From contig OX387602.1 in assembly GCA_947568835.1 (NCBI GenBank), positions 30,862,133-30,926,132 on the forward strand: a DNA stretch of 64,000 nt. The letters are read 5' to 3'. The DNA comes from Protonemura montana (taxonomy: Eukaryota > Arthropoda > Insecta > Plecoptera > Nemouridae). This document shows positions 3,100-50,933 of this stretch, one piece after another. Position numbers and translations under genes: made by a program. The first letter of the stretch is position 1, and every line of letters begins with the position of its first letter. Below the pieces are notes generated by a model, which ran no database searches, had not been told where the DNA came from, and saw only the letters and a list, made by a program, of their open reading frames with translations.

Positions 3100-3378
3100 C
3101 ACAATTGCCGTTCATGTTTTGTTAAATGCGTTTGGGCAGCGATATGGTGAGGAATGCGATGATGAAGGTATAAAAACATTATTTATATATTGTTTAATTT
3201 ATTTGATTTCTCTTCCGTACCAACAAACCTATGCCGAACTTAAACCTGGTCGTGTTTCCTTTCTTTGCTCTGGTTCCTTAACTTATGGCCCACTGCCCTG
3301 GGTTCGTAAGTGCAATAGGCTGTACATTTTATTATTAAACACACTACATATACACTAAAATCGTCTCAAGTAGCCAGT

Positions 3379-3460
3379 GTCCAGATAGCTCAATGGTTCA
3401 GAGCAACACCCGCGATAGGTGGAGATCGGGGTTCGAGTCCGCGTTTGGGCATCAATTTTT
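3379..3460 (+). repeat. tRNA-derived element with cloverleaf-like fold
   Basis: A 72-nt stretch (3379-3450) folds roughly like a tRNA: a 7-bp acceptor stem with two or three G-U pairs, D arm with A box TAGCTCAATGGTTCAGAG, and T arm with B box GGTTCGAGTCC. A TTTTT run at 3456-3460 could stop Pol III. The anticodon loop lacks U33 and the T stem has a mismatch, so it is probably not a working tRNA. The central words (cccgcgat.ggtggagatcgggg) recur at 35073-35148, which marks it as a repeat family. Confidence 0.55.
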
Positions 3461-4097: not shown

Positions 4098-5742
4098 CTA
4101 CTTGTCCCACGGGATCTCTTCCCCTTCCTCCTCGCCCAAGTCAGAGTGGTCCTCTATGGCGTACTGCAAACATAAAGAACACAAGTCAACACCAGCCAGG
4201 TCTGCCGGCCAGCTCGGGTCATTCCATGCACGACAATCTCCACCGCACAGGTTCAAGTGCTGGAAACACAGGTGCACGTAAAATCACCAAAGTTGAGCAA
4301 CACTGCGCTGGGCCCAATATTTGATAGATTTATTTGTGGTGTTTAACGACGCACTGTTTTGACATCTGGCCATGCGGTACTGGTCTAATGGCGTCGGTGA
4401 ATGAGTGGATGATGGTGAACCTAAACTAGCCTGTAAGGGAAGAGGGGAAAACCGGTGCCGGCACGTAGCCTGCTCCTGTCGAAGAGCACCAAGGGGACCA
4501 ACGGCTTAACGTCCCTTCCGAAGGACGGTACAACGCGAACAGCAGGATTCCTCCACAAATCCATGCTGTCGAGAGGTTGATAAGCAAGGCGAGTGAAGTT
4601 GCTGTACTAACTTTCATCCCTCAAACCTCTCTCCCGAACAGAACTGGTCATGTGTATGATGGTCACCCATCCAATACCTGACCCAGCGCAGTGTTGCTTA
4701 ACTTTCATCCCTCCAACCTCTCTCCCAAACAGAACTGGTCATGTGTATGATGGTCACCCATCCAATACCTGACTCAGCGCAGTGTTGCTTAACTTAAGTG
4801 ATCTTACGAGAACCGGTGTTTCCAACACGCCAAACCGTTTGGATATCGGAAGGGTGACTAACCTACTCATCGACCAGTTCTGTTCTGGAGAGAGGTTGGA
4901 GGGATGAAAGTTAGTACAGCAACTTCACTCGCCGTGCTTATCAACCTCTCGACAGCATGGATTTGTGGAGGAATCCTGCTGCTCGAGTTGTACCATCCTT
5001 CGAAAAGGACCAAAAGCCAGTGGCTTTTCGTCAGGAGTAGGCTACGAGTATCCTCGCCGTTACCCACTCATGCATCGACATTAGGGGCCACAGGGGCCAT
5101 TGTCGAAGCAGTGCGTCGTTAAACAGACTCAATGGTCCACGCTCCCATCACAACGCGAGTCTTGCAGTGTGGCGCTTACCTCGGGGTTCGCGTCAACGAC
5201 CTTTTCCGGAGGGTAGTAGACGTCCGCGGCGTTCTTTGCCTGGGCTTGTGGCAGGCAACTCGACTCTGGAATTACGACGATATTAGCATCCGTGTGTGAC
5301 CCACTCTACCTGGCCGTGGCACTACACATGTTGCAGTGGCTGGAGGGCATGCGCCTGCTACTGGTCTTGCCACCAGCTCGCACAAACCAGAGACCCATCG
5401 GCCGTCCTGTCCCCTCAATTCACTTTCTCCGGCGCTGGTCTGCTTGCAATCCATCACGCACAATCGCACGGCCACGCCGGACTGACCTGATTCAATGCCA
5501 ATGTATGATACATCAAAGAAGCAAGTTAACTAATCTCCGATGCACCAAAGCAGACACTTTCTCCTCGTTCTAAAGTGTTAGAAACATTGCTTTGTACTGG
5601 GACGACTTCCAACCATCGAGCTATTCCAACAGGGAGGTCTGAAACCATTAACAAAGTGTCTGGACCTGGTCGTGAACTCACCTGTCGCCAACAACGCCAG
5701 CACCAGCGCCAGCGCCAACACGATGCAGGAGGAGGTCTTCAT
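4098..5742 (-). CDS. Small secreted acidic peptide precursor (70 aa), unrecognised
   Basis: Three exons on the minus strand: 5742-5682, 5265-5180 and 4163-4098. Borders are GT-AG, phases 1 and 0 match, and the frame ends in TAG. The ATG opens a textbook signal peptide (MKTSSCIVLALALVLALLAT). The mature part is about 50 residues, with one Cys, the run DVYYPPEKVVDANPEYAIED, then a Glu-rich stretch ending EEIPWDK. There are no dibasic cleavage sites and no transmembrane segment, so it looks like a secreted peptide or small protein rather than a multi-peptide prohormone. I know no family with this sequence. Intron 2 holds two head-to-head SINEs. It is divergent from the Ly6-like gene, and a TATA-like box lies about 75 bp upstream of the ATG. 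Support is structural only. Confidence 0.62.
4321..4866 (-). mobile_element. 5S-rRNA-headed SINE
   Basis: The body runs from 'gtgtttaacgacgcactg' near 4340 through the 'ggcttaacgtcccttccg' segment. It is followed on the right by complemented 5S-like pieces ('tccaatacctgacccagcgc', 'aaccggtgtttccaacacgc'). The 5S internal-promoter half is present at least twice (about 4655-4700 and 4750-4800), so the head is internally duplicated. It lies in intron 2 of the secreted-peptide gene. Confidence 0.75.
4867..5122 (+). mobile_element. SINE copy in opposite orientation, head to head with previous
   Basis: Starts near 'accagttctgttctgg', runs through 'gatgaaagttagtacagcaa' and ends with 'gtgcgtcgttaaac', the complement of the body end in the neighbouring copy. 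It lacks the 5S head. With 4321-4866 it forms an inverted pair inside one intron. Confidence 0.7.
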
Positions 5743-7541: not shown

Positions 7542-10500
7542 TCAGTAAGCCGGCCGGGGCAGCGCCAGCTTGCTGCGGTAGTTTGTACGATAGTCTGCCC
7601 GGAAGTCGGTCATCTGCAGTCCCAACTGTTGCTTCCACGGCATGGGCTTGATGTTGGTCGCGATCAACGCCCTCTCGCCGTCGGACCTCTGCACCTCGCG
7701 CACCATCTGACAGAAGCTCACTGTGCAGAACCACATGTAGAAGAGGTACACTGAAACCAAGAGTGCGGGACACGGGTCTCTCAGGGGCTGGAATCGCGTG
7801 TGACAGCTTTGGGAAGTGCTAGCACATCTGGTAAGGTAGGTGGTGGTGTCAGCCCGTTTAGGTAATGTTGTTGGTTTCTCCTTAACCAACAAATGGGCAA
7901 CAATAATATTTTACTCTTGGATGGTTATATTTCCCCCTCGTTAGTATGTTGGGCTCATTAAGGGACCAGAAGGGAGTTGCAATCTCCCTTATAGCTTCTG
8001 GAACTTGAACCAAGTAACGCACTGGAAGAAAAGCCTTGAAATTAATACGCAAGAAACATTCCACTAAACGTGCTTAACACACAAAAAATATCCATTCGAG
8101 AAAATCCCTCTTTTTTTCACAAGTCTTTCATAACTTGCCCTCCCGCCCCTCCAAGCCGTTGGCTCACAAAGGACGAAGCCACCGATGATCGTGGCGCCGA
8201 TGATCGCCCCGAGGTCCAGGATGTTCTCCTTGACGATCATGACGACCACGATGAACACGCCGGTGGTGAACGCAAGACGAGCTAGGTCGAGGCCGACATA
8301 GGGCAACGCTAGTTGCCAGTTGCACTGCGACATGAGACAGAGAGGGATCTCGTCAGTCAGGCTAAGGGGAGGCGTTGGACTATCTTGCAGCAGGCGACGT
8401 AACTACCTTGAATGCTGCGACGATCAGGAGCAAGCACGAGAGAGTGTACGCCCCCATCAAGACCGTAGCCGTCGTCGATGCTCCCCCGGGATCTGTGAAC
8501 GGTGTCGTGGGGTATTTATGTACAAAACCTAATCATATCTAGAATGCTCATTGCTGGAAGCAGAGAGCTAGAGGAGATTGATATTGTCATTGTTATTGTT
8601 TTGAACTCGTATAGGTTTCGTGACATCATTGGGTCTAAACAGCCGAGACACCCGATGATGAAGTGGTTACCTGCATGAACAGGTAACAGGTAATACCAAG
8701 GCCAGCACGGTACGTTCAGAGTGCAAGCCACACGTCAATAAATTGCTACAAAGAAATAGATTTCAATCAGGAAAATACTGGGAAATATGCAATCGCAAAA
8801 ATCGCACATGAGCAGGTGGATTCGTATCGCTAGATTATTATGTAGTGTTTTCTACTTGGATGGTCCCGAGTGGCAAGTAAAAAAACTGCGGCCTCGCGAC
8901 AGCCGATCGGCGAAACGATCAGTTTATGTCGCTGCCAATCCGTGGATATTGTGCAAAAAGGTGCACGCAACCCCCTCTCCCTCGCCCCAGCTCTAATGCG
9001 AATGTCGCAACGCGACGTTACAATATCCTACGTGCGTGACGGCAAAAACCAACATGACAGTCACGTCACAGCTTGTCAACGATTGACATTGACATAGGCA
9101 ACGGGGGGCGAGCACTGGGTCACTTTGACACGAGCAGAAATTGACACGCAGCTCGAATGCCATGCTGACTTGTTTAAAGTTGTTTGGACAAGACGATTTG
9201 TCTTATCACTGGAACGTACGTTGCCAATCTGAATCATATCCCCAGTGCCATGCTGTGAACCTCCTTTCCATGTTATCCCTCAAGATGGAAAGTGAACCCT
9301 TATGCCTCACAAACCGGTAGGGATCCGAAGCGTACCTTTCTTTACAGCCTCCAGCAGGTCCCCGACGAAGAGGAGCTCGTAGTCATCGTGCACCCACCCA
9401 ATGAGTGACGTGACGGCCTGGGGATGGCTGACGGCGAGACAACAAACCACAAGCCCCCCGATGGCCTGCACCTGTCAACCGGCAAGTGGTCAGAGAAACA
9501 TCATTGAGACGCGCTCAAAGGCATGGCCAGGTAAAGAATGGGTAGAGCCGTAGAGTCTATGCTAAGTTTTCTGGACCTTCTTTGGATATACATCATGATC
9601 GCAGCAGTTGTTGGGGGTACTAGAGGGTGGCTATTGCTGGATTTAGTGGCACACCAGGCAATTTCATGAGATGCGTTACCGACTCGCCTCAGGCTGTCGG
9701 AAAATGCGGTATTTGTGAGCCTGTCGACTGGCTAGCCATTGCCAGGTTGCAAGTACAGCGATTGTAAAATGATAATTTTGACGTTGAAATGGCAGATTCA
9801 AATAAAAATGTTACGCCAATCCAACATAAAAAGACTGTTCTGCTATTTCCAATGCCGATCGGTACCTTTCTCATAGCCAGGCGAGATCGAGCTACACGAC
9901 CACAGAACTGTGAGTACCACCCACATTTGTAACAATATCTTGCATATCGCGCCAAAACACTTGCTTGACAACACCGGTCTAGCGCACAAAGAAATCGGTG
10001 CTAATCAAATTATTTCTGATACTTTTAAACAAATGTAGCACGTCGTAAAGAGATAAAAAAAATCATCGAGCAGACGGGATTCGAACGCGGGCCTTGCCAC
10101 ACTGCATTATGATACTCTACCGGCTCGACTACGAGAGCGGATGATTGTTCACGAAGAAAATTTAAATTGTAAAACATTGAAGGAGAGAGGTATGTTCGGT
10201 TACTTCGGGTCAATATTAGCAGTTAGGTAGGTTTATTTCCTGCCATAGAAGCATGTGGTGAAACGTAGCTCTGTGGTGAGCGCTGTGCTTCGTATTGAGA
10301 AGGTTCTGCGTTCGGTTCCCGTCCAAGTAGCTTTTTGTTTCTTACCATCGAGTTAGATAACAAATGAGCAAAAAGGAAAAATTATTACAAGTCCAGAGTG
10401 TAGTACTAATTTCTGCCGACAGGTGGCTCTGATGCTAGTTTTGTACTTAACACTAGTTCCCATGTTCCAATATACTTGGTGCTAGACTTAGGAGCCGCAC

Positions 10501-13500
10501 ACGGGGTATAGGTGGGGTTTGGGGTCGTGGGAACTTCCCGCAAAATTGGCGGGCGCGACTGGCGCGAAGCGCCAGGAGCGCCCGGCAATTTTGCTAGTGT
10601 CTAAAACATGCGCCCAAAAAAAATTACAAAATAACAGATTTGTCTAGCGTGATTCGAACCCAGACTCTCGGCATTCATGAGAGAGACGAATTCAATGCCT
10701 TTATCCACTCGACCAAGTGGACTCATGTTTGCCTCAGCATTTTTTTAGATATAGAAGTCTTCTGACTCGAGCTACCACTGGTATATGTTGGATGTCGTTC
10801 TCCAAACGGTAAAAATTTCCTTCGTCGATTGGATTCGATCCAGGTGGCGGATGATTTCGACATTACCGATGCAGTGACTATTCCATTTTGCCACGCAGAC
10901 TACCATACACTTAATGGAAAAAAGAACCTATTTTAATTTCATTTTTGAAAACGCCACCTTTTTGATAGGATAGCGACCGTACGTTTTGTTTTGTTTGGTG
11001 TAGAAGCGCATTCCCGTTAGCTGTCCGGGAATTTATCTGCAAACATTTTTTAAATAACACGAGCGATTATTATTTGTCATCGAAAACATAAGCTAAACCC
11101 TGCCGGCGCAAATAGCAATGCGGAAGCCCTTGGCAACTACATTTTTGGGTGTCACCATTTGCCACGATCGGTCTCAAATGTGCAAGCAATGGAGCCCGAC
11201 TGGCACAACGCCACTTGATGCCCGTTGATCGAGTGCGGGTATTCCATTTATTCTTATTTGTTAAGTTTCACCGAACACGCAGTCGTGTTAAGTCGCAACG
11301 TGACCCCCATCGCAATCTGGCGGATATAAAATGTACTACGATATTTTCCGAGAATGATATTTTTGTTTAATCAAAATAAATATTTAATATAAAATACTCA
11401 TACCCAAAATAAAATCCATTATTATCATGATATCATACGTCCAACATAATATCCAACAGATAGCGCTGGGGGTCACAATGCGACTTAACACTAATGCTTG
11501 TTCGGTGATTCATTTACAGATGAAAGAACCTATAGGCCCTGTGATTAGACATCGGAGGTTGATTGGCGTTCCTCCGGTCGGGTTGTAACCGTTGCATTAT
11601 CGCGATAGATCTTGCTTAATGGTGAAAGCCCATCTTCATGGTGTGTTTGAGCGCCTCTGTGCCGGGTGGTGGGTGTAGGCGAGAGGCCAACGTTTGCAAC
11701 TATGCCGGGGAAAGTTCATTTCTCTCGGCGCTGTTTTTGTACTTTTCTATTTGCCTGATGGCGCTCAGTTTTTTTACTTTATTACTTATTAGAAAGAAAA
11801 AAAAAACCGGCAGACGGCGTGATTTGAACATGGGCCTCGTCGTATTGTAATTGAACTCTCTAACCGCTTGACCACGAGAGCAGATGAACAGCGGTGGAGT
11901 TTTGATGTTAATATAAATTGCCAAACTGTGAGATTGGAAGCATGTTGGTAATTAGGGAAGAATAATATCGTTAGCAGTCTAGTAGGTTTATTTCCGCTCG
12001 GATTGAAATGTGGAGCGTAGCTCTGTGGTGAGCGCTGTGCTTCGTATTAAGAAGGTTCTGCGTTCGGTTCCCGTCCAAGTAGCTTTTTGTTTCTTACCAT
12101 CGAGTTAGATAACAAATGAGCAAAAAGAAAAAATTATTACAAGTCCAGAGTGTAGTACTAATTTCTGTCGACAGGTGGCTCTGATGCTAGTTTTGTACTT
12201 AACACTAGTTCCCATGTTCCTATATACTTGGTGCTAGACTTAGGAGCCGCACACGGGGTATAGGTGGGGTTTGGGGTCGTGGGAACGTCCCGCAAAATTG
12301 GCGGGCGCGACTGGCGCGAAGCGCCAGGAGCGCCCGGCAATTTTGCTAGTGTCTAAAACATGCGCCTAAAAAAAATTACAATATAACAGAATTGTGTAGC
12401 GTGATTCGAACCCAGACTCTCGGCATTCATGAGAGAGACGAATTCAATGCCTTTATCCACTCGACCAAGTGGACTCATGTTTGCCTCAGCATTTTTTTAG
12501 ATATAGAAGTCTTCTGACTCGAGCTACCACTGGTATATGTTGGATGTCGTTCTCCAAACGGTAAAAATTTCCTTCGTCGATTGGATTCGATCCAGGTGGC
12601 GGATGATTTCGACATTACCGATGCAGTGACTATTCCATTTTGCCACGCAGACTACCATACACTTAATGGAAAAAAGAACCTATTTTAATTTCATTTTTGA
12701 AAACGCCACCTTTTTGATAGGATAGCGACCGTACGTTTTGTTTTGTTTGGTTTAGAAGCGCATTCCCGTTAGCTGTCCGGGAATTTATCTGCAAACATTT
12801 TTTAAATAACACGAGCGATTATTATTTGTCATCGAAAACATAAGCTAAACCCTGCCGGCGCAAATAGCAATGCGGAAGCCCTTGGCAACTACATTTTTGG
12901 GTGTCACCATTTGCCACGATCGGTCTCAAATGTGCGAGCATTGGGGCCCGACTGGCACAACGCCACTTGATGCCCGTTGATCGAGTGCTGGTATTCCATT
13001 TATTCTTATTTGTTAAGTTTCACCGAACACGCAGTCGTGTTAAGTCGCAACGTGACCCCCAGCGCAATCTGGCGGATATAAAATGTACTACGATATTTTC
13101 CGAGAATGATATTTTTGTTTAATCAAAATAAATATTTAATATAAAATACTCATACCCAAAATAAAATCCATTATTATCATGATATCATACGTCCAACATA
13201 ATATCCAACAGATAGCGCTGGGGGTCACAATGCGACTTAACACTAATGCTTGTTCGGTGATTCATTTACAGATGAAAGAACCTATAGGCCCTGTGATTAG
13301 ACATCGGAGGTTGATTGGCGTTCCTCCGGTCGGGTTGTTACCGTTGCATTATCGCGATAGATCTTGCTTAATGGTGAAAGCCCATCTTCATGGTGTGTTT
13401 GAGCGCCTCTGTGCCGGGTGGTGGGTGTAGGCGAGGGGGCCAACGTTTGCAACTATGCCGGGGAAAGTTCATTTCTCTCGGCGCTGTTTTTGTACTTTTT

Positions 13501-16500
13501 TATTTGCCTGATGGCGCTCAGTTTTTTTACTTTATTACTTATTAGAAAGAAAAAAAAAACCGGCAGACGGCGGGATTTGAACATGGACTTCCCGCATTGT
13601 AATAGAACACTCTAACCGCTTGACCACGAGAGCAGATGAACAGCGGTGGAGTTTTGATGTTAATATAAATTGCCAAACTGTGAGATTGGAAGCATGTTGG
13701 TAATTAGGGAAGAATAATATCGTTAGCAGTCTAGTAGGTTTATTTCCGCTCGGATTGAAATGTGGAGCGTAGCTCTGTGGTGAGCGCTGTGCTTCGTATT
13801 GAGAAGGTTCTGCGTTCGGTTCCCGTCCAAGTAGCTTTTTGTTTCTTACCATCGAGTTAGATAACAAATGAGCAAAAAGAAAAAATTATTACAAGTCCAG
13901 AGTGTAGTACTAATTTCTGCCGACAGGTGGCTCTGATGCTAGTTTTGTACTTAACACTAGTTCCCATGTTCCTATATACTTGGTGCTAGACTTAGGAGCC
14001 GCACACGGGGTATAGGTGGGGTTTGGGGTCGTGGGAACGTCCCGCAAAATTGGCGGGCGCGACTGGCGCGAAGCGCCAGGAGCGCCCGGCAATTTTGCTA
14101 GTGTCTAAAACATGCGCCCAAAAAAAATTACAATATAACAGAATTGTGTAGCGTGATTCGAACCCAGACTCTCGGCATTCATGAGAGAGACGAATTCAAT
14201 GCCTTTATCCACTCGACCAAGTGGACTCATGTTTGCCTCAGCATTTTTTTAGATATAGAAGTCTTCTGACTCGAGCTACCACTGGTATATGTTGGATGTC
14301 GTTCTCCAAACGGTAAAAATTTCCTTCGTCGATTGGATTCGATCCAGGTGGCGGATGATTTCGACATTACCGATGCAGTGACTATTCCATTTTGCCACGC
14401 AGACTACCATACACTTAATGGAAAAAAGAACCTATTTTAATTTCATTTTTGAAAACGCCACCTTTTTGATAGGATAGCGACCGTACGTTTTGTTTTGTTT
14501 GGTGTAGAAGCGCATTCCCGTTAGCTGTCCGGGAATTTATCTGCAAACATTTTTTAAATAACACGAGCGATTATTATTTGTCATCGAAAACATAAGCTAA
14601 ACCCTGCCGGCGCAAATAGCAATGCGGAAGCCCTTGGCAACTACATTTTTGGGTGTCACCATTTGCCACGATCGGTCTCAAATGTGCAAGCAATGGAGCC
14701 CGACTGGCACAACGCCACTTGATGCCCGTTGATCGAGTGCGGGTATTCCATTTATTCTTATTTGTTAAGTTTCACCGAACACGCAGTCGTGTTAAGTCGC
14801 AACGTGACCCCCATCGCAATCTGGCGGATATAAAATGTACTACGATATTTTCCGAGAATGATATTTTTGTTTAATCAAAATAAATATTTAATATAAAATA
14901 CTCATACCCAAAATAAAATCCATTATTATCATGATATCATACGTCCAACATAATATCCAACAGATAGCGCTGGGGGTCACAATGCGACTTAACACTAATG
15001 CTTGTTCGGTGATTCATTTACAGATGAAAGAACCTATAGGCCCTGTGATTAGACATCGGAGGTTGATTGGCGTTCCTCCGGTCGGGTTGTAACCGTTGCA
15101 TTATCGCGATAGATCTTGCTTAATGGTGAAAGCCCATCTTCATGGTGTGTTTGAGCGCCTCTGTGCCGGGTGGTGGGTGTAGGCGAGAGGCCAACGTTTG
15201 CAACTATGCCGGGGAAAGTTCATTTCTCTCGGCGCTGTTTTTGTACTTTTCTATTTGCCTGATGGCGCTCAGTTTTTTTACTTTATTACTTATTAGAAAG
15301 AAAAAAAAAACCGGCAGACGGCGTGATTTGAACATGGGCCTCGTCGTATTGTAATTGAACTCTCTAACCGCTTGACCACGAGAGCAGATGAACAGCGGTG
15401 GAGTTTTGATGTTAATATAAATTGCCAAACTGTGAGATTGGAAGCATGTTGGTAATTAGGGAAGAATAATATCGTTAGCAGTCTAGTAGGTTTATTTCCG
15501 CTCGGATTGAAATGTGGAGCGTAGCTCTGTGGTGAGCGCTGTGCTTCGTATTAAGAAGGTTCTGCGTTCGGTTCCCGTCCAAGTAGCTTTTTGTTTCTTA
15601 CCATCGAGTTAGATAACAAATGAGCAAAAAGAAAAAATTATTACAAGTCCAGAGTGTAGTACTAATTTCTGTCGACAGGTGGCTCTGATGCTAGTTTTGT
15701 ACTTAACACTAGTTCCCATGTTCCTATATACTTGGTGCTAGACTTAGGAGCCGCACACGGGGTATAGGTGGGGTTTGGGGTCGTGGGAACGTCCCGCAAA
15801 ATTGGCGGGCGCGACTGGCGCGAAGCGCCAGGAGCGCCCGGCAATTTTGCTAGTGTCTAAAACATGCGCCTAAAAAAAATTACAATATAACAGAATTGTG
15901 TAGCGTGATTCGAACCCAGACTCTCGGCATTCATGAGAGAGACGAATTCAATGCCTTTATCCACTCGACCAAGTGGACTCATGTTTGCCTCAGCATTTTT
16001 TTAGATATAGAAGTCTTCTGACTCGAGCTACCACTGGTATATGTTGGATGTCGTTCTCCAAACGGTAAAAATTTCCTTCGTCGATTGGATTCGATCCAGG
16101 TGGCGGATGATTTCGACATTACCGATGCAGTGACTATTCCATTTTGCCACGCAGACTACCATACACTTAATGGAAAAAAGAACCTATTTTAATTTCATTT
16201 TTGAAAACGCCACCTTTTTGATAGGATAGCGACCGTACGTTTTGTTTTGTTTGGTTTAGAAGCGCATTCCCGTTAGCTGTCCGGGAATTTATCTGCAAAC
16301 ATTTTTTAAATAACACGAGCGATTATTATTTGTCATCGAAAACATAAGCTAAACCCTGCCGGCGCAAATAGCAATGCGGAAGCCCTTGGCAACTACATTT
16401 TTGGGTGTCACCATTTGCCACGATCGGTCTCAAATGTGCGAGCATTGGGGCCCGACTGGCACAACGCCACTTGATGCCCGTTGATCGAGTGCTGGTATTC

Positions 16501-19500
16501 CATTTATTCTTATTTGTTAAGTTTCACCGAACACGCAGTCGTGTTAAGTCGCAACGTGACCCCCAGCGCAATCTGGCGGATATAAAATGTACTACGATAT
16601 TTTCCGAGAATGATATTTTTGTTTAATCAAAATAAATATTTAATATAAAATACTCATACCCAAAATAAAATCCATTATTATCATGATATCATACGTCCAA
16701 CATAATATCCAACAGATAGCGCTGGGGGTCACAATGCGACTTAACACTAATGCTTGTTCGGTGATTCATTTACAGATGAAAGAACCTATAGGCCCTGTGA
16801 TTAGACATCGGAGGTTGATTGGCGTTCCTCCGGTCGGGTTGTTACCGTTGCATTATCGCGATAGATCTTGCTTAATGGTGAAAGCCCATCTTCATGGTGT
16901 GTTTGAGCGCCTCTGTGCCGGGTGGTGGGTGTAGGCGAGGGGGCCAACGTTTGCAACTATGCCGGGGAAAGTTCATTTCTCTCGGCGCTGTTTTTGTACT
17001 TTTTTATTTGCCTGATGGCGCTCAGTTTTTTTACTTTATTACTTATTAGAAAGAAAAAAAAAACCGGCAGACGGCGGGATTTGAACATGGACTTCCCGCA
17101 TTGTAATAGAACACTCTAACCGCTTGACCACGAGAGCAGATGAACAGCGGTGGAGTTTTGATGTTAATATAAATTGCCAAACTGTGAGATTGGAAGCATG
17201 TTGGTAATTAGGGAAGAATAATATCGTTAGCAGTCTAGTAGGTTTATTTCCGCTCGGATTGAAATGTGGAGCGTAGCTCTGTGGTGAGCGCTGTGCTTCG
17301 TATTGAGAAGGTTCTGCGTTCGGTTCCCGTCCAAGTAGCTTTTTGTTTCTTACCATCGAGTTAGATAACAAATGAGCAAAAAGAAAAAATTATTACAAGT
17401 CCAGAGTGTAGTACTAATTTCTGCCGACAGGTGGCTCTGATGCTAGTTTTGTACTTAACACTAGTTCCCATGTTCCTATATACTTGGTGCTAGACTTAGG
17501 AGCCGCACACGGGGTATAGGTGGGGTTTGGGGTCGTGGGAACGTCCCGCAAAATTGGCGGGCGCGACTGGCGCGAAGCGCCAGGAGCGCCCGGCAATTTT
17601 GCTAGTGTCTAAAACATGCGCCCAAAAAAAATTACAATATAACAGAATTGTGTAGCGTGATTCGAACCCAGACTCTCGGCATTCATGAGAGAGACGAATT
17701 CAATGCCTTTATCCACTCGACCAAGTGGACTCATGTTTGCCTCAGCATTTTTTTAGATATAGAAGTCTTCTGACTCGAGCTACCACTGGTATATGTTGGA
17801 TGTCGTTCTCCAAACGGTAAAAATTTCCTTCGTCGATTGGATTCGATCCAGGTGGCGGATGATTTCGACATTACCGATGCAGTGACTATTCCATTTTGCC
17901 ACGCAGACTACCATACACTTAATGGAAAAAAGAACCTATTTTAATTTCATTTTTGAAAACGCCACCTTTTTGATAGGATAGCGACCGTACGTTTTGTTTT
18001 GTTTGGTTTAGAAGCGCATTCCCGTTAGCTGTCCGGGAATTTATCTGCAAACATTTTTTAAATAACACGAGCGATTATTATTTGTCATCGAAAACATAAG
18101 CTAAACCCTGCCGGCGCAAATAGCAATGCGGAAGCCCTTGGCAACTACATTTTTGGGTGTCACCATTTGCCACGATCGGTCTCAAATGTGCGAGCATTGG
18201 GGCCCGACTGGCACAACGCCACTTGATGCCCGTTGATCGAGTGCTGGTATTCCATTTATTCTTATTTGTTAAGTTTCACCGAACACGCAGTCGTGTTAAG
18301 TCGCAACGTGACCCCCAGCGCAATCTGGCGGATATAAAATGTACTACGATATTTTCCGAGAATGATATTTTTGTTTAATCAAAATAAATATTTAATATAA
18401 AATACTCATACCCAAAATAAAATCCATTATTATCATGATATCATACGTCCAACATAATATCCAACAGATAGCGCTGGGGGTCACAATGCGACTTAACACT
18501 AATGCTTGTTCGGTGATTCATTTACAGATGAAAGAACCTATAGGCCCTGTGATTAGACATCGGAGGTTGATTGGCGTTCCTCCGGTCGGGTTGTTACCGT
18601 TGCATTATCGCGATAGATCTTGCTTAATGGTGAAAGCCCATCTTCATGGTGTGTTTGAGCGCCTCTGTGCCGGGTGGTGGGTGTAGGCGAGGGGGCCAAC
18701 GTTTGCAACTATGCCGGGGAAAGTTCATTTCTCTCGGCGCTGTTTTTGTACTTTTTTATTTGCCTGATGGCGCTCAGTTTTTTTACTTTATTACTTATTA
18801 GAAAGAAAAAAAAAACCGGCAGACGGCGGGATTTGAACATGGACTTCCCGCATTGTAATAGAACACTCTAACCGCTTGACCACGAGAGCAGATGAACAGC
18901 GGTGGAGTTTTGATGTTAATATAAATTGCCAAACTGTGAGATTGGAAGCATGTTGGTAATTAGGGAAGAATAATATCGTTAGCAGTCTAGTAGGTTTATT
19001 TCCGCTCGGATTGAAATGTGGAGCGTAGCTCTGTGGTGAGCGCTGTGCTTCGTATTGAGAAGGTTCTGCGTTCGGTTCCCGTCCAAGTAGCTTTTTGTTT
19101 CTTACCATCGAGTTAGATAACAAATGAGCAAAAAGAAAAAATTATTACAAGTCCAGAGTGTAGTACTAATTTCTGCCGACAGGTGGCTCTGATGCTAGTT
19201 TTGTACTTAACACTAGTTCCCATGTTCCTATATACTTGGTGCTAGACTTAGGAGCCGCACACGGGGTATAGGTGGGGTTTGGGGTCGTGGGAACGTCCCG
19301 CAAAATTGGCGGGCGCGACTGGCGCGAAGCGCCAGGAGCGCCCGGCAATTTTGCTAGTGTCTAAAACATGCGCCCAAAAAAAATTACAATATAACAGAAT
19401 TGTGTAGCGTGATTCGAACCCAGACTCTCGGCATTCATGAGAGAGACGAATTCAATGCCTTTATCCACTCGACCAAGTGGACTCATGTTTGCCTCAGCAT

Positions 19501-22500
19501 TTTTTTAGATATAGAAGTCTTCTGACTCGAGCTACCACTGGTATATGTTGGATGTCGTTCTCCAAACGGTAAAAATTTCCTTCGTCGATTGGATTCGATC
19601 CAGGTGGCGGATGATTTCGACATTACCGATGCAGTGACTATTCCATTTTGCCACGCAGACTACCATACACTTAATGGAAAAAAGAACCTATTTTAATTTC
19701 ATTTTTGAAAACGCCACCTTTTTGATAGGATAGCGACCGTACGTTTTGTTTTGTTTGGTTTAGAAGCGCATTCCCGTTAGCTGTCCGGGAATTTATCTGC
19801 AAACATTTTTTAAATAACACGAGCGATTATTATTTGTCATCGAAAACATAAGCTAAACCCTGCCGGCGCAAATAGCAATGCGGAAGCCCTTGGCAACTAC
19901 ATTTTTGGGTGTCACCATTTGCCACGATCGGTCTCAAATGTGCGAGCATTGGGGCCCGACTGGCACAACGCCACTTGATGCCCGTTGATCGAGTGCTGGT
20001 ATTCCATTTATTCTTATTTGTTAAGTTTCACCGAACACGCAGTCGTGTTAAGTCGCAACGTGACCCCCAGCGCAATCTGGCGGATATAAAATGTACTACG
20101 ATATTTTCCGAGAATGATATTTTTGTTTAATCAAAATAAATATTTAATATAAAATACTCATACCCAAAATAAAATCCATTATTATCATGATATCATACGT
20201 CCAACATAATATCCAACAGATAGCGCTGGGGGTCACAATGCGACTTAACACTAATGCTTGTTCGGTGATTCATTTACAGATGAAAGAACCTATAGGCCCT
20301 GTGATTAGACATCGGAGGTTGATTGGCGTTCCTCCGGTCGGGTTGTTACCGTTGCATTATCGCGATAGATCTTGCTTAATGGTGAAAGCCCATCTTCATG
20401 GTGTGTTTGAGCGCCTCTGTGCCGGGTGGTGGGTGTAGGCGAGGGGGCCAACGTTTGCAACTATGCCGGGGAAAGTTCATTTCTCTCGGCGCTGTTTTTG
20501 TACTTTTTTATTTGCCTGATGGCGCTCAGTTTTTTTACTTTATTACTTATTAGAAAGAAAAAAAAAACCGGCAGACGGCGGGATTTGAACATGGACTTCC
20601 CGCATTGTAATAGAACACTCTAACCGCTTGACCACGAGAGCAGATGAACAGCGGTGGAGTTTTGATGTTAATATAAATTGCCAAACTGTGAGATTGGAAG
20701 CATGTTGGTAATTAGGGAAGAATAATATCGTTAGCAGTCTAGTAGGTTTATTTCCGCTCGGATTGAAATGTGGAGCGTAGCTCTGTGGTGAGCGCTGTGC
20801 TTCGTATTGAGAAGGTTCTGCGTTCGGTTCCCGTCCAAGTAGCTTTTTGTTTCTTACCATCGAGTTAGATAACAAATGAGCAAAAAGAAAAAATTATTAC
20901 AAGTCCAGAGTGTAGTACTAATTTCTGCCGACAGGTGGCTCTGATGCTAGTTTTGTACTTAACACTAGTTCCCATGTTCCTATATACTTGGTGCTAGACT
21001 TAGGAGCCGCACACGGGGTATAGGTGGGGTTTGGGGTCGTGGGAACGTCCCGCAAAATTGGCGGGCGCGACTGGCGCGAAGCGCCAGGAGCGCCCGGCAA
21101 TTTTGCTAGTGTCTAAAACATGCGCCCAAAAAAAATTACAATATAACAGAATTGTGTAGCGTGATTCGAACCCAGACTCTCGGCATTCATGAGAGAGACG
21201 AATTCAATGCCTTTATCCACTCGACCAAGTGGACTCATGTTTGCCTCAGCATTTTTTTAGATATAGAAGTCTTCTGACTCGAGCTACCACTGGTATATGT
21301 TGGATGTCGTTCTCCAAACGGTAAAAATTTCCTTCGTCGATTGGATTCGATCCAGGTGGCGGATGATTTCGACATTACCGATGCAGTGACTATTCCATTT
21401 TGCCACGCAGACTACCATACACTTAATGGAAAAAAGAACCTATTTTAATTTCATTTTTGAAAACGCCACCTTTTTGATAGGATAGCGACCGTACGTTTTG
21501 TTTTGTTTGGTTTAGAAGCGCATTCCCGTTAGCTGTCCGGGAATTTATCTGCAAACATTTTTTAAATAACACGAGCGATTATTATTTGTCATCGAAAACA
21601 TAAGCTAAACCCTGCCGGCGCAAATAGCAATGCGGAAGCCCTTGGCAACTACATTTTTGGGTGTCACCATTTGCCACGATCGGTCTCAAATGTGCGAGCA
21701 TTGGGGCCCGACTGGCACAACGCCACTTGATGCCCGTTGATCGAGTGCTGGTATTCCATTTATTCTTATTTGTTAAGTTTCACCGAACACGCAGTCGTGT
21801 TAAGTCGCAACGTGACCCCCAGCGCAATCTGGCGGATATAAAATGTACTACGATATTTTCCGAGAATGATATTTTTGTTTAATCAAAATAAATATTTAAT
21901 ATAAAATACTCATACCCAAAATAAAATCCATTATTATCATGATATCATACGTCCAACATAATATCCAACAGATAGCGCTGGGGGTCACAATGCGACTTAA
22001 CACTAATGCTTGTTCGGTGATTCATTTACAGATGAAAGAACCTATAGGCCCTGTGATTAGACATCGGAGGTTGATTGGCGTTCCTCCGGTCGGGTTGTTA
22101 CCGTTGCATTATCGCGATAGATCTTGCTTAATGGTGAAAGCCCATCTTCATGGTGTGTTTGAGCGCCTCTGTGCCGGGTGGTGGGTGTAGGCGAGGGGGC
22201 CAACGTTTGCAACTATGCCGGGGAAAGTTCATTTCTCTCGGCGCTGTTTTTGTACTTTTTTATTTGCCTGATGGCGCTCAGTTTTTTTACTTTATTACTT
22301 ATTAGAAAGAAAAAAAAAACCGGCAGACGGCGGGATTTGAACATGGACTTCCCGCATTGTAATAGAACACTCTAACCGCTTGACCACGAGAGCAGATGAA
22401 CAGCGGTGGAGTTTTGATGTTAATATAAATTGCCAAACTGTGAGATTGGAAGCATGTTGGTAATTAGGGAAGAATAATATCGTTAGCAGTCTAGTAGGTT

Positions 22501-25500
22501 TATTTCCGCTCGGATTGAAATGTGGAGCGTAGCTCTGTGGTGAGCGCTGTGCTTCGTATTGAGAAGGTTCTGCGTTCGGTTCCCGTCCAAGTAGCTTTTT
22601 GTTTCTTACCATCGAGTTAGATAACAAATGAGCAAAAAGAAAAAATTATTACAAGTCCAGAGTGTAGTACTAATTTCTGCCGACAGGTGGCTCTGATGCT
22701 AGTTTTGTACTTAACACTAGTTCCCATGTTCCTATATACTTGGTGCTAGACTTAGGAGCCGCACACGGGGTATAGGTGGGGTTTGGGGTCGTGGGAACGT
22801 CCCGCAAAATTGGCGGGCGCGACTGGCGCGAAGCGCCAGGAGCGCCCGGCAATTTTGCTAGTGTCTAAAACATGCGCCCAAAAAAAATTACAATATAACA
22901 GAATTGTGTAGCGTGATTCGAACCCAGACTCTCGGCATTCATGAGAGAGACGAATTCAATGCCTTTATCCACTCGACCAAGTGGACTCATGTTTGCCTCA
23001 GCATTTTTTTAGATATAGAAGTCTTCTGACTCGAGCTACCACTGGTATATGTTGGATGTCGTTCTCCAAACGGTAAAAATTTCCTTCGTCGATTGGATTC
23101 GATCCAGGTGGCGGATGATTTCGACATTACCGATGCAGTGACTATTCCATTTTGCCACGCAGACTACCATACACTTAATGGAAAAAAGAACCTATTTTAA
23201 TTTCATTTTTGAAAACGCCACCTTTTTGATAGGATAGCGACCGTACGTTTTGTTTTGTTTGGTTTAGAAGCGCATTCCCGTTAGCTGTCCGGGAATTTAT
23301 CTGCAAACATTTTTTAAATAACACGAGCGATTATTATTTGTCATCGAAAACATAAGCTAAACCCTGCCGGCGCAAATAGCAATGCGGAAGCCCTTGGCAA
23401 CTACATTTTTGGGTGTCACCATTTGCCACGATCGGTCTCAAATGTGCGAGCATTGGGGCCCGACTGGCACAACGCCACTTGATGCCCGTTGATCGAGTGC
23501 GGGTATTCCATTTATTCTTATTTGTTAAGTTTCACCGAACACGCAGTCGTGTTAAGTCGCAACGTGACCCCCAGCGCAATCTGGCGGATATAAAATGTAC
23601 TACGATATTTTCCGAGAATGATATTTTTGTTTAATCAAAATAAATATTTAATATAAAATACTCATACCCAAAATAAAATCCATCATTATCATGATATCAT
23701 ACGTCCAACATAATATCGAGCAGGTAGCGCTGGGGGTCACGATGCGACTTAACACTAATGCTTGTTCGGTGATTCATTTACAGATGAAAGAACCTATAGG
23801 CCCTGTGATTAGACATCGGAGGTTGATTGGCGTTCCTCCGGTCGGGTTGTAACCGTTGCATTATCGCGATAGATCTTGCTTAATGGTGAAAGCCCATCTT
23901 CATGGTGTGTTTGAGCGCCTCTGTGCCGGGTGGTAGGTGTAGGCGAGGGGGCCAACGTTTGCAACTATGCCGGGGAAAGTTCATTTCTCTCGGCGCTGTT
24001 TTTGTACTTTTCTATTTGCCTGATGGCGCTCAGTTTTTTTACTTTATTACTTATTAGAAAGAAAAAAAAAACGGCAGACGGCGTGATTTGAAAATGGGCC
24101 TCGTCGTCTGGAATTGAACTCTCTAACCGCTTGACCACGAGAGCAGATGAACAGCGGCGAGGTTTTCATGTTAATATAAATTGCCAAACTGTGAGATTGG
24201 AAGCATGTTGGTAATTAGGGAAGAATAATATCGTTAGCAGTCTAGTAGGTTTATTTCCCGCTCGGTTTGAAATGTGGAGCGTAGCTCTGTGGTGAGCGCT
24301 TTGCTTCGTGTCGAGAAGGTTCTGCGTTCGGTTCCCGTCCAAGTAGCTTTTTGTCTCTTACCATCGAGTTAGATAACAAATGAGCAAAAATGAAAAATTA
24401 TTATATGTCCAGAGTGTAGTACTTATTTCTGCCGACAGGTGGCTCTGATGCTAGTTTTGTACTTAACACTAGTTCCCATGTTCCTATATACTTGGTGCTA
24501 GACTTAGGAGCCGCACACGGGGTATAGGTGGGGTTTGGGGTCGTGGGAACGTCCCGCAAAATTGGCGGGGGCGACTGGCGCGAAGCGCCAGGAGCGCCCG
24601 GCAATTTTGCTAGTGTCTTTAACATGCGGCCAAAAAAATGGCAAAAGTGTGAATGTGCGTCGTGGCACAAACGTGATTCGAACCTTGGTACTTCGTTTAG
24701 TCTATTCACATGTAATCAATGAATTCAATGCCTTTAACCGCATGACCAAGCAGCCATTGTTAGTTGCATGCATTTTTTTAGATATATAAGTCACCTGACT
24801 TCAGCCACCGCTAATGGATGTTGGATGTCGTTGTCCAACGGTAAAAAGGTTTCTCAGTCGAGTGGATTCGATCCAGGCAGCGGAAACTTTTGGCATTACT
24901 AAAGCAGCTCCTTAACCATTGCACCACGTAGACGGCCGTACATTGGAGAGAAAGATTACCCTATTTGAATTTCTTGTTTGAAAACTCGGTCTACCGGGTA
25001 GGTACATGACATCGATTGTACTTTCTCTTTAGTCTGGTCAAGAAGCAAATTCCCAATTTATCTTCAAAAACTATTTAAATATCACGGACAATAAATATTG
25101 ATCTTCACAAGCAAGAGCTAGACCCGGCCACCATACCTAGCAGTGTAGAGGTACTAGGTCGCTTCACTTAGCAAGGCAGAAGCACTCGACAACTCAAATA
25201 TATGGGCAACCACCAATTGCAACAAGCTGACGTGAGAACGCAAGCTTTATTTGGGACCAGTGAAACGCCAGTCTCACCCCGAAGTAAGGTGACAGTGCCC
25301 CCATTTTCTCTTATTTGTTAAGTTTCACCGAACACGCAGTCGTGTTAAGCTGCACAGTGACCCCCAGCGCAATCTGTTGGATTTCAAATGTACTCGATCA
25401 ATCAATGCTGGACTTCGGTCGGTAACCCGGATATTGATACGCCTGATGTTAAGAAATATATAATACTATCATTCCTCGGCCGGAATTCGATCGTGGATTC

Positions 25501-26877
25501 TTCATCACATCGACCAGGACGTCCTCATCGCTCGAATTACCTACTGTGGGCGCAGAATCTGAATCAGCAGCTTTGATTTATATTTTTGATTACTCAAAGG
25601 TCCGAGATCTTTCATCTAGCAGAACAACCCGTTTCCAGTATCGAAACCCGGCGCCACCACTGCCGTCCAGTGGTGGCGCCGGGTTTCGATGCTGATGTCC
25701 CGAGATTGGTCGACTCATAAGAGTCTCGGTCTGTACCAACATGACCACGAGTAGTTGAAAACAACCGCAGCTGGCGCCGCCAGATGATCGTCATCGCACT
25801 GGCTAAGTTTGATCCGAGCACTGCCATCCTGACACAGACCCCCGCCATTGTTTCACTCGAAATATCAGGAAACTTATTTCAAAAGTATGCTTTGGACTAT
25901 TTTATCGCCATCCCTCCGAAAGAAATGTGTTCCAGATGAATTGCTTAGGGTCATAAAAGTTGCAGGGGCCGGGATTTGAACCGCGGCCCACTGGCGACGT
26001 AGACTTTGACCATAAAACAGATCTACGTGGACCAGTGTTTTATTACTAAACACGTGATGAAAAATGTTGTTAATAATTAAGTCAAGTCGCCGATTTATGA
26101 CGAAAAAAAATGCGGACCGACTGGGATACGAACTCGGTACGACTGGATGAAGTTGGTAGAGAAACGACCTATTCAACCTGCCATCAAGTGAAGTCGATTT
26201 ATAGGATATAAATAACAAATACTTGAATAGCAAAGGAGGGCCCCATCGTAAACTAGATGTACAAGTTATGAGCTGGGACTATTGTTTTAAAATAATTAGC
26301 TGGCATTAGCTGGAAGTATTCTCTCTACAAAGATAATTTCTGCCAGCCATTGTAAGCTCACGGGAATTGTCAATAAGAAACCCCAATTTTTGTAAATTTT
26401 AATTTTTTTTTTGTCCAGGGCTGGGCCAAAAATTAAGACTATCACGGATCGAAAGCTTCTCACGTACTCTATCTTCTGTAAAAAATTCAATTAGGTCCCC
26501 CCCCCCCCCCCCCCCATCATTTGGTAAGTAGCTTGCTTACTAGAGAGACGGCGCCGACGATGAAAGAGCCCAGAGCCTCCTTACTAGATTAATTGATTGA
26601 TTTGTGGTGTTTAGCGACGCACTTTTTTGACATCTGGCCATGTGACACTGGCGTCGGTGAATGAGTGGATGAGGTTGATGATAAACCTAACCTAGCCTAG
26701 AAGGGAGGAGGGGAAACCCAGTGCCGGCACGTAGCCTACTCCTGTCGAAGAGCACCAAGGGGATCACCGGCTTAACGTTCCATCCGAAGGACGGTTGCTT
26801 ACTAGAGAGACAGCGCCTACGATGATAGAGCCGAGCCGCACTGAGAACCAGAAGCAGAAGTTGTACATCACCACCAT
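7542..26877 (-). CDS. Four-transmembrane protein (220 aa) with a 17.3-kb first intron
   Basis: Five minus-strand exons: 26877-26803, 9471-9336, 8492-8407, 8324-8168 and 7750-7542. All borders are GT-AG, phases are 0,1,0,1, and the frame ends in TGA. The product has four hydrophobic helices: an N-terminal FCFWFSVRLGSIIVGAVSL continuing into VQAIGGLVVCC, then LMGAYTLSCLLLIVAAF, FTTGVFIVVVMIV with GAIIGATIIGGFVLLYLF, and a cytoplasmic tail ending RPAY. The loop between TM1 and TM2 is short and acidic. This resembles arthropod four-TM families (LAPTM/Pasiflora-like layout, 'S-x-R-x-G-S-I-I' in TM1), but I cannot name the orthologue. Exons 2-5 are strong. Exon 1 is inferred from its perfect phase fit and TM1 character across the repeat array. 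The intron contains the 1752-bp macrosatellite. Confidence 0.75.
10030..10400. repeat. Diverged leading partial unit of the 1752-bp array
   Basis: Contains diverged copies of the last two modules of the array unit. A minus-strand tRNA-like module lies at about 10055-10145, with A box TAGTCGAGCCGGTAGAGT, B box CGTTCGAATCCCG and a TTTTTTTT terminator. A plus-strand module lies at about 10262-10340. This edge copy looks older than the array interior. Confidence 0.7.
12366..12475 (-). repeat. tRNA-like Pol III module T1 (reference unit 2)
   Basis: On the minus strand: A box TGGTCGAGTGGATAAAGGC, a stem GGCATT/AATGCC, B box GGGTTCGAATCAC, then TTTTTTTT about 30 nt downstream. The layout recalls class II (Leu/Ser) tRNAs with a long variable region. 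The acceptor stem is not intact. The same module recurs every 1752 bp, and in diverged form at about 24640-24760. Confidence 0.65.
12563..12653 (-). repeat. tRNA-like Pol III module T2 (reference unit 2)
   Basis: On the minus strand: GTCTGCGTGGCAAAATGG gives the A box, GGATCGAATCC the B box, and TTTTT follows at 12567-12563. A diverged copy at about 24845-24935 has an even better A box (GTGGTGCAATGGTTAAGGAG), which argues that the boxes are kept while the rest drifts. Confidence 0.6.
13021..13260. repeat. Foldback palindrome inside the 1752-bp unit (reference unit 2)
   Basis: Two arms of about 80 bp are inverted copies of each other. The left arm runs from caccgaacacgcag through gtgacccccagcgcaatctg; the right arm is its complement, ending near ttcggtga. 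The central part is AT-rich. It is present in every unit. A lone left arm survives at 25318-25375 past the array end. Confidence 0.8.
13550..13635 (-). repeat. tRNA-like Pol III module T3 (reference unit 2)
   Basis: On the minus strand: A box TGGTCAAGCGGTTAGAG, B box TGTTCAAATCCCGCC, then CTGCCGG and a run of nine or ten T, a strong Pol III terminator. The acceptor stem does not pair, so it is tRNA-derived rather than a working tRNA. Confidence 0.65.
13764..13840 (+). repeat. tRNA-like Pol III module T4 (reference unit 2)
   Basis: On the plus strand: GGAGCG then A box TAGCTCTGTGGTGAGCGC, B box CGTTCGGTTCCCG, then TTTTT at 13836-13840. This is the only plus-strand module of the unit, antisense to the host four-TM gene; T1 to T3 are sense. 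Confidence 0.65.
24417..25400. repeat. Diverged trailing partial unit of the array
   Basis: The first ~200 bp match the unit closely. Similarity then falls, but the order T1-like (24640-24760), T2-like (24845-24935) and foldback left arm (25318-25375) is kept. It ends before T3. This is what an old array edge should look like under unequal exchange. Confidence 0.8.
25640..25690. repeat. Perfect 22-bp hairpin
   Basis: Arms 25640-25661 (starting atcgaaacccggcgcc) and 25669-25690 are exact complements around the 7-nt loop gccgtcc. The arms are GC-rich and would form a very stable stem. No T-run or gene is next to it. Confidence 0.9.
25955..26190 (-). repeat. Two further degenerate tRNA-like modules
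   Basis: On the minus strand a B box GCGGTTCAAATCCCGG lies at about 25970-25985, with a weak A box upstream. A second B-like box GAGTTCGTATCCC lies near 26130, followed by TTTTTTT. Both look like relatives of the array modules outside the array. Confidence 0.4.
26497..26515. repeat. Poly-C tract (19 bp)
   Basis: Uninterrupted run of C. Its true length may be uncertain in an assembly. Confidence 0.9.
26541..26579 (-). pseudogene. Second copy of TM1-exon 3' part of the four-TM gene
   Basis: Minus-strand EALGSFIVGAVSL followed by GTAAGC matches the end of the predicted exon 1 (RLGSIIVGAVSL, GTAAGC) with three base changes over about 36 bp. A SINE (26583-26800) separates the two copies. It could be a duplicated or alternative exon, or an unusually long direct repeat around the SINE. 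An AG precedes it, so splicing is possible, but it has no start codon. Confidence 0.5.
26583..26800 (-). mobile_element. SINE body (5S-headed family)
   Basis: Contains 'gtgtttagcgacgcac', 'gaagagcaccaaggggatca' and 'ggcttaacgttccatccga', matching the other bodies. It is shorter than them, and the head is missing. It lies between the two copies of the TM1 exon. Confidence 0.75.
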
Positions 26878-42643: not shown

Positions 42644-43545
42644 TTTTCCGCCCAGAGTTCAGTTGAGGCAATGTTGCCAGACTTGAGAACTGGAGCAGAT
42701 GTTTCCAATGCATTATTATTTGTAAAACACGTGCTTTGATTACTGTTTTCTTTTTTACCACATTCCTTGTGGCAGTGAACAATGTCAACCATTTTCTAAA
42801 TCTTTGCAAAACTCTCCTAGTATTAAAATCATTTTGTAGTTTTCGAATCAATAACGAGGGGTGGGATCGATAAACGCACGGGTTCTTCGAGAATCCCACC
42901 TCTTACCGCGTCTGCGCGCCTGACACCGCTGAGTTTTAAGAATGAGAGAGCGAAGCAATTGGCGACCAATCTCATTAAATCTCATTACCAACTTGCCACG
43001 GCAAGTACAAAACAATACGGAACACGACTGCCCCAAACGGCGTCATATACTCAATATACCAACCGACGCCGGCCAGAGTGTTTCTGCGGGTACGTCGATC
43101 TTGTATTCGATATCGACCAACATTACCTAATGACTGGAACCTTGATGGTATAGGTTTGCTTTTAGGAGCATTCCGGCGTCGGTGAGCCGTTAACTTGCAG
43201 TACCTTGAGTTGGTCTGTGACCACCGACGCCAGTAATCAGGACGCCGTTATAGAAGAACTTCCGGCTCAGCTGTCGTTTCCTGTCATTTCCTCTCGCCGT
43301 TTCCCAGAAATCGATGAGAAACGGTCTGGAATTTAGTTTCCTACCCACTGGTCCGGCGACTCTCTAGGCGGCTGTGGCGCTGCAGTTGCTGATGAAGATT
43401 TTTTGTTCAACGGGGCCCCAACCCATGCCCCAACCCATGCCCCATCCCATGCCCCATCCCATGCCCCATCCTATGCCCAATCCCATGCCCCATCCTATGT
43501 CCCACCCCGCCGTTTAAGGGCACATTGGTTTATTACTATCCCAAC
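42644..43545. other. COX10 upstream region
   Basis: Contains the probable COX10 promoter and first-exon region. A short tandem run of 'catgccccatcc' type units lies at about 43413-43506. No other gene is seen. Confidence 0.5.
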
Positions 43546-50930: not shown

Positions 50931-50933
50931 CCA

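Follow-up and report, generated by a model that had tools for sequence, protein, structure and literature searches.

A dispersed, transposon-like repeat of Protonemura montana with four Pol III-type cassettes and a conserved core, locally amplified into a tandem array of 1752-bp units

The array and its position

We analysed a stretch of 64,000 nucleotides from the genome of the plecopteran insect Protonemura montana (contig OX387602.1, below also C1, positions 30,862,133 to 30,926,132, forward strand), hereafter the window, in which a 1752-bp unit is repeated in tandem (Table 1). A 21-mer marker taken from the best-kept part of the unit, the core, occurs nine times from 10497 to 24513, and the eight spacings between its occurrences are each exactly 1752 bp, as a first-pass annotation of this DNA had claimed. 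When the units were phased from 11329, seven of them (11329-23592), the reference unit included, matched that reference at 98.8-100% identity. The 1752-bp stretches bordering these units matched at 74% on the left, where the stretch lies partly outside the array, and at 79% on the right. The palindrome at the unit junction recurred through the array at 1752-bp steps (self-comparison; 40 of the 44 within-array matches listed).

The array sits between an open reading frame (ORF) resembling Ly6 and a gene for an AMP-binding enzyme, both on the + strand. The Ly6-like ORF ends at 7075; it was named by eye, and Pfam gave no match at E 0.01. Pfam matches in two ORFs, 29624-29983 and 33526-34020, identified the AMP-binding enzyme gene, for which a candidate first exon was placed by eye near 28.85 kb. 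By this flanking coding evidence the array looks intergenic. The first-pass annotation had placed it within an intron of a host gene; nothing found here points to an intron, although a position inside an intron of an untranslated region, or inside an intron of an undetected minus-strand gene, is possible.

Table 1 Features of the repeat and its array, in window coordinates
Feature	Position	Strand	Basis or detail
Tandem array of the 1752-bp unit	10046..25398 (about)	+	Nine cores at even spacing, seven units nearly identical to one another, both edges diverged; self-comparison, unit identities
Diverged M4 copy, left array edge	10051..10144	-	Match to the M4 region of other loci
Imperfect palindrome at unit junction	13020..13260	no strand	248 aligned columns, 72.6% identical to its own reverse complement
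Reference unit	13081..14832	+	Phase set by the palindromic junction, which holds both ends of single-copy relatives
Module M4	13540..13640	-	A box 13616-13626, B box 13573-13583, T-run 13547-13559
Module M1	13766..13842	+	A box 13770-13780, B box 13814-13824, T-run 13835-13842
Conserved core (~230 bp), best-kept stretch of the unit across loci	13881..14108	+	Per-bin identity, pairwise identity, marker count
CTCF-like motif in core	13920..13934	+	Window copy reads CCGACAGGTGGCTCT, one base off CCANCAGGTGGCNCT
G-quadruplex motif in core	14007..14035	+	57 of the 59 core copies studied fit the G3+N1-7 pattern
Hairpin in core	14044..14098	+	9+7+7 paired bases = 23 pairs; two-sided changes at three pairs
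Module M2	14116..14232	-	A box 14209-14219, B box 14154-14164, T-run 14117-14127
Module M3	14312..14408	-	A box 14387-14397, B box 14335-14345, T-run 14312-14320
Diverged right array edge with diverged M2 and M3 (by eye)	24640..25398	+	Self-comparison, unit identities
Right flank common to many other loci	25399..26510	+	89 matches

Pol III-type cassettes that have lost the tRNA fold

Each unit holds four modules with the arrangement of a type 2 promoter of RNA polymerase III (Pol III), namely an A box, a B box at tRNA-like spacing and a downstream T-run. Under a fixed pattern, all four B boxes of the unit had an A box upstream and a run of at least four T (T4+) downstream, compared with a mean of 0.01 complete cassettes in dinucleotide-shuffled units (maximum 1 in 500 shuffles). 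Over the whole array (10046-25398) the pattern found 35 complete cassettes, against a mean of 0.17 and a maximum of 2 in 60 shuffles, and the four other scanned stretches of the window yielded one cassette in total. These counts agree with the many cassettes, four to a unit, of the first-pass annotation, and its further observations that three modules lie on one strand and one on the other (M4, M2 and M3 on the - strand, M1 on the + strand) and that diverged modules occur at both array edges were also reproduced, on the left by a match to M4 of other loci and on the right by eye. It should be noted that the regular expression was written after the modules had been seen and, so as not to miss M1, was relaxed slightly at two positions, so the contrast with shuffled sequence excludes only an accident of base composition, and the evolutionary test given below is the stronger one.

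In 28 other loci sampled from the genome, both single-copy and tandem, the modules occupied the same unit positions and strands (M1 in 27/28, M2 in 28/28, M3 in 28/28 and M4 in 25/28). The pattern found 170 cassettes, including tandem near-copies, and T4+ followed within 46 nt in 167 of them, compared with 29.5% of random positions in the same loci. Among the 136 distinct cassettes, T4+ lay at most 61 nt away in 134 and at most 30 nt away in 123, with a median distance of 17 nt.

T-stem pairing in the modules was 2.76 of 5 pairs, the same as in a control with arms dealt anew, and all five pairs were present in none of the 136 distinct modules. The tRNA-Ser (anticodon CGA) at 3378-3453, the sole tRNA recognised in the window, served to calibrate the measure and had 4 of 5 pairs. 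A scan of 9500-26700 with Rfam returned no match at E ≤ 5, and no module in it scored as a tRNA; nor was a tRNA match above the gathering threshold found in the 20 of the 28 sampled loci scanned in this way. In a tRNA search of the genome, for which 63 of 23,590 candidates were scored, 59 of the 62 listed matches had scores of 63.4-73.5 bits. By both the Rfam scans and T-stem pairing, the unit contains no functional tRNA genes. With the boxes and T-runs kept, T-stem pairing at control level and no tRNA recognised by Rfam, the modules have retained their promoter-like parts and lost the tRNA fold, which bears out the persistence of boxes and terminators described in the first-pass annotation.

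A dispersed family in the genome

A search of the unit against its own 258-Mb genome placed it in a dispersed family with members on several contigs. Both ends of the single-copy loci fall within the tandem unit's palindromic junction, and the loci run on into the shared right flank; in coordinates of the query unit (12153-13904) they start at about 929 and come round to 942. Larger stretches on a scale of 9-10 kb were taken round 10 of the 28 loci. In four of these 10, all single-copy loci, the last ~130 bp of the right flank stood inverted at the left side, forming ends like terminal inverted repeats (TIR-like ends), and internal sub-repeats of very roughly 145 bp were seen by eye. The repeat would thus appear to be built like a non-autonomous transposon of the foldback kind. 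Rather than a stand-alone macrosatellite, the array represents local amplification of this dispersed transposon-like repeat.

A 22-base stretch with the A box of M2 had 19 exact copies in the genome, of which 15 lay within 1.5 kb of family places when checked by hand. The right flank was considered as a cassette-rich region and rejected as such: weak tRNA-like strings are visible in it, and the strict pattern found no complete cassette. Several arrays of the family cluster near the right end of contig C1, at about 28.8-31.2 Mb.

Conservation of boxes and core among diverged copies

An alignment was made of the window unit and 23 loci, with L015, L018, L019, L026 and L036 omitted for short coverage. 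Removal of near-duplicates, leaving pairwise identities below 80% outside the core, reduced its 24 rows to 21, including the window unit, and these had a median identity of 67% outside the core. Mean pairwise column identity was 0.838 in the A and B boxes and 0.812 in boxes and T-runs together, compared with 0.642 at other module positions, 0.607 in spacers, 0.734 in the junction and 0.902 in the core. When the box mask was rotated round the non-core unit, one of 1499 rotations reached the observed value, and this one was shifted by a single base. The B boxes of M2 and M3 were at the 99.4 and 98.4 percentiles among non-core 11-mers, and GWTCRANNC was kept in 19/21 sequences in both modules. 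A coarse profile in 25-bp bins had suggested that modules are no better kept than spacers, and the box-level comparison on the alignment reversed this. Boxes diverging as fast as spacers, which would have spoken against the selection proposed in the first-pass annotation, are therefore not what diverged loci of the same genome present (0.84 vs 0.61). That proposal holds in so far as boxes and T-runs are kept; it needs amending in that the core is better kept than the cassettes (0.90 vs 0.84 for the boxes) and is the part of the unit under the tightest constraint.

The core lies between M1 and M2. Its identity to the window unit was 0.88-0.99 per 25-bp bin (0.78 in the bin with its last bases), compared with a unit mean of 0.75, and the pairwise identity of 0.90 was measured over the slightly wider interval U796-1047. 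The core marker had 580 exact copies in the genome and none when read backwards. The core folded 4.1 and 5.0 standard deviations better than shuffles on the two strands. Its hairpin was assessed on an alignment of 32 sequences from which identical ones had been removed: 97.0% of cells were paired, compared with 96.4% when shuffled; two-sided changes occurred at three pairs, compared with 0.9 in shuffles (12/500 as high), a modest contrast; and further pair types numbered 10, compared with 8.7 (57/500 as high). The core was ruled out as a known RNA, with no Rfam match, and as a coding exon, with variable positions lacking a codon rhythm, as judged by eye with no formal test.

Pairs of cores and neighbours of motifs were counted on the first 100 listed of 580 core places and of 652 motif places, all on C1. 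Of these 100 cores, 47 formed an inward-facing pair with another core at a distance of 300-1500 bp and 44 had a neighbour on the same strand at 1.3-2.0 kb. In 25 there was no opposite-strand core within 1.5 kb and no such unit-like neighbour on the same strand. At L019 and L046 the core takes part in palindromes of the form core(+)-module(-)-module(+)-core(-). Given the inward-facing pairs and these palindromes, the core is common to at least two element types and often acts like an inverted-repeat end. The second element type, at L019:1469-2448 and L046:7924-9173, consists of a core, a minus-strand tRNA-like module, a palindromic centre, a plus-strand module and an inverted core, and another core directly follows the inverted one.

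A CTCF-like motif in the core

The core contains a CTCF-like motif that was noticed after the fact. The sequence CCANCAGGTGGCNCT had 652 matches in the genome, compared with six for its reversed control, and most of the 100 listed read CCAACAGGTGGCGCT; the human CTCF consensus is reported as CCASYAGRKGGCRS (PMC6746451). Of the 89 exact cores within the listed range of C1, 68 had the motif where it was expected. In 59 of the 61 distinct core copies, which served for all core motif counts, CCA.CAGGTGGC was present in 43 and missing from 16, and AGGTGGC was missing from seven. The copies of the window itself lack CCA.CAGGTGGC, and the four distinct ones examined were all without CCA (three read CCG and one TCG). 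A second core type kept CCACCAGGTGGC in three of four copies read, with neighbouring bases differing; the two core types differ round the motif and mostly retain it.

Among the 100 listed CCANCAGGTGGCNCT sites, 20 had no exact core marker within 3 kb, and 18 of these 20 were identical to CCAACAGGTGGCGCT. The upstream TCTG of the core was found at two of the 20 isolated sites and its AGAGTGTAGT, at core spacing, at none. Such sites may be degenerate cores or binding sites of their own.

A panarthropod survey reports CTCF from 105 species (PMC5094011). Searches with CTCF fingers, in which 150 of 959 and 150 of 970 candidates were scored, gave no clear ortholog here, the best long matches to the human fingers (188-226 of 238 residues) being 32-36% identical. 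An exon with 48% identity at C5:3524584 was rejected as an ortholog, since its 82 residues look like generic C2H2 fingers. The stretch C4:8089823-8090104, with 46% identity over 95 amino acids to CTCF fingers, is a further candidate. We treat the CTCF-like motif as a lead and not as a result.

Possible explanations

Starting from the observed array, cassettes, dispersal, loss of pairing and excess conservation of boxes and core, we favour, with a probability of about one half (0.52), a dispersed transposon-like composite repeat that is selected for its Pol III cassettes and core and has been amplified locally in tandem. Its four cassettes, each with an internal A box, a B box and a T-run terminator, would descend from or imitate tRNA genes and no longer form tRNAs. 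TFIIIC would bind the boxes, and Pol III would produce short RNAs of roughly 100 nt that end at the T-runs. The repeat would have spread by a transposon-like route with its four cassettes still used or usable; cassettes and core would be kept because element lineages bearing them spread or persist better, and unequal exchange would alter the local copy number. An RNA product, a chromatin state that keeps the element accessible and boundary activity are alternatives for the selected benefit. The retention of T-runs favours real transcription and termination over mere docking, and sequence by itself does not decide between transcription and a boundary function.

Several points weigh against this explanation. 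Box conservation is uneven, with the B box of M4 at the 55th percentile, the A box of M1 at the 78th, and GWTCRANNC kept in 13/21 sequences in M1 and 12/21 in M4. The 170 cassettes were chosen by a pattern that demands boxes, and this set cannot itself demonstrate box conservation. Acceptor stems had 3.49 of 7 pairs, slightly above the control (3.28, standard deviation 0.09), and some residual tRNA structure in the modules is possible. The comparison was made among paralogous copies of one genome, so selection at the level of the element and of the host cannot be told apart. In addition, a transposon nature is inferred from dispersal and TIR-like ends.

The main rival, which is compatible with transcription and which we regard as possible but doubtful, is a mobile boundary element. 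The cassettes would then be mainly docking sites for TFIIIC, the core would bind a CTCF-like architectural protein, and arrays and scattered copies would partition chromatin, in convergence with mouse B2 short interspersed elements (SINEs) and the human 1q23.3 macrosatellite of tRNA genes (tDNA). This is consistent with boxes kept without a tRNA fold, with the excess of CCANCAGGTGGCNCT over its reversed control, with the motif at its place in most listed exact cores and at sites away from exact cores, and with the retention of CCACCAGGTGGC in the second core type beside the human consensus; the panarthropod occurrence of CTCF, the B2 boundary and the conserved CTCF motif of the 1q23.3 repeat point the same way. 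However, the window copies lack CCA, AGGTGGC and CCA.CAGGTGGC are each missing from some core copies, the motif was spotted post hoc, the scored finger candidates include no clear CTCF ortholog, and mere docking of TFIIIC needs no retention of T-runs. A bolder and rather unlikely version would be a self-spreading insulator, in which a transposon-like repeat packages two kinds of architectural site, namely clusters of TFIIIC/Pol III cassettes devoid of tRNA function and a conserved core whose CTCF-like motif is joined by a G-quadruplex and by a hairpin able to form a cruciform; the macrosatellite arrays into which it grows would set chromatin borders, and copy number would tune border strength.

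It is less probable again that needs internal to the element account for everything, the transposition machinery requiring the core as an inverted-repeat end and the boxes as cis signals, with neither Pol III output nor a role for the host. The inward-facing core pairs, the palindromes at L019 and L046 and the TIR-like ends of single-copy loci suit such an account, which leaves unexplained the T-runs, the keeping of several tRNA-type A and B boxes and the 25 listed cores that have neither an opposite-strand core nor a unit-like neighbour. A passive satellite, in which a tRNA-rich segment was duplicated by chance and decays neutrally with boxes as a remnant of recent tRNA ancestry, would agree with the homogenised tandem copies usual for satellites and with the slight excess of acceptor-stem pairing. 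We consider it very improbable, as neutral decay should hit boxes, arms and spacers alike, while strong differences were seen, even more so for the core, and the rotation test already disfavours it. Hardly credible is the chance landing of four tRNA-derived SINEs close together, followed by duplication. Every module does have a tRNA-type head and a terminator, and 23,590 tRNA candidates were raised in the genome; but module strand and unit position are common to diverged loci, and the M2 A-box stretch has few exact copies, mostly near family places.

Comparison with described systems

Extra-TFIIIC (ETC) sites are A/B-box sites without tRNA function and are typically solitary, and the mouse B2 element is a short single-module retroposon. 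The repeat resembles ETC sites and tDNA insulators in keeping A and B boxes without tRNA function, and differs from ETC sites in also keeping terminators and in having tens of cassettes per array. With B2 it shares dispersal and a tRNA-type Pol III promoter; unlike B2, it has a multi-module 1.75-kb unit, an inverted-repeat context and a CTCF-like motif that is predicted. B2 is described as a mobile boundary that binds CTCF (PMC8136502), and barrier activity is described for tDNAs (PMC4041453).

Among systems already described, the human 1q23.3 tDNA variable tandem repeat comes closest; it has a 7.3-kb unit, intact tRNA genes and CTCF binding measured at one locus; between human and mouse its Pol III genes and CTCF motif are conserved, and the rest of the unit has diverged (PMC4041453). 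Both repeats have kilobase tandem units with several Pol III-type cassettes (four per 1752 bp here) and a short CTCF-type motif, a putative one in P. montana. The P. montana repeat, by contrast, has lost the tRNA folds, is dispersed and has a unit of 1.75 kb, and its CTCF-like motif is known from sequence.

Satellites have also grown from Tetris, a non-autonomous, foldback-type transposon with inverted repeats and internal tandem sub-repeats (PMC4079207). The apparent likeness lies in inverted repeats with sub-repeats, tandem arrays derived from a transposon and ends shared between families, and the difference in the Pol III cassettes, which the abstract on Tetris does not mention (PMC4079207). 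Squamate SINE-derived satellites are tandem repeats of portions of single SINEs (PMC10702118) and are similar in arising from pieces of Pol III-type dispersed elements, whereas the unit here comprises four cassettes and a conserved core.

No description of the 1752-bp repeat or of its combination of features was found among the matches listed in the open-licence literature. The repeat sequence is thus apparently undescribed, with relatives in kind in the 1q23.3 repeat, B2 and Tetris-type satellites. Of the macrosatellite of an undescribed family named in the first-pass annotation, the lack of a matching description stands, and the array itself is to be seen as a local amplification of a dispersed repeat that has such relatives.

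Other features of the window and genome

About 1 kb of degenerate AACCT repeats, equivalent to TTAGG, the arthropod telomere repeat, lies at 50894-51898, about 2.2 Mb inside the contig end. Repeats resembling 5S rRNA occur at 4723-4843, 43545-43663, 40484-40945, 4608-4795 and 43592-43779, two of them above the Rfam threshold; they contain 91-bp tandem sub-repeats, and further copies are present at L014 and L026. Two 47-bp tandem arrays (44673-45329 and 45526-45997) are inverted copies of each other, and a 43-bp tandem array with about 61 copies and 97% matches occupies 60151-62796.

Elsewhere in the genome, COX1 matches were found at C4:5760925-5762262 and C4:5776811-5777755, one of which scores the same as the match on the 15.9-kb contig C34. 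Nuclear copies and an assembly effect are alternative explanations of the C4 matches. COX1 on the small contig has no stops under the invertebrate mitochondrial code.

Implications

The repeat provides a natural experiment in which Pol III boxes and terminators have been conserved after the loss of tRNA structure, in many copies within one genome. It makes non-tRNA roles of Pol III and TFIIIC sites directly testable, and the core, with hundreds of copies, a marker 21-mer and strong structure, offers a second handle. If the boundary role were true, the pairing of tRNA-type sites with a CTCF-type motif would have arisen in an invertebrate repeat, as it has in mammals.

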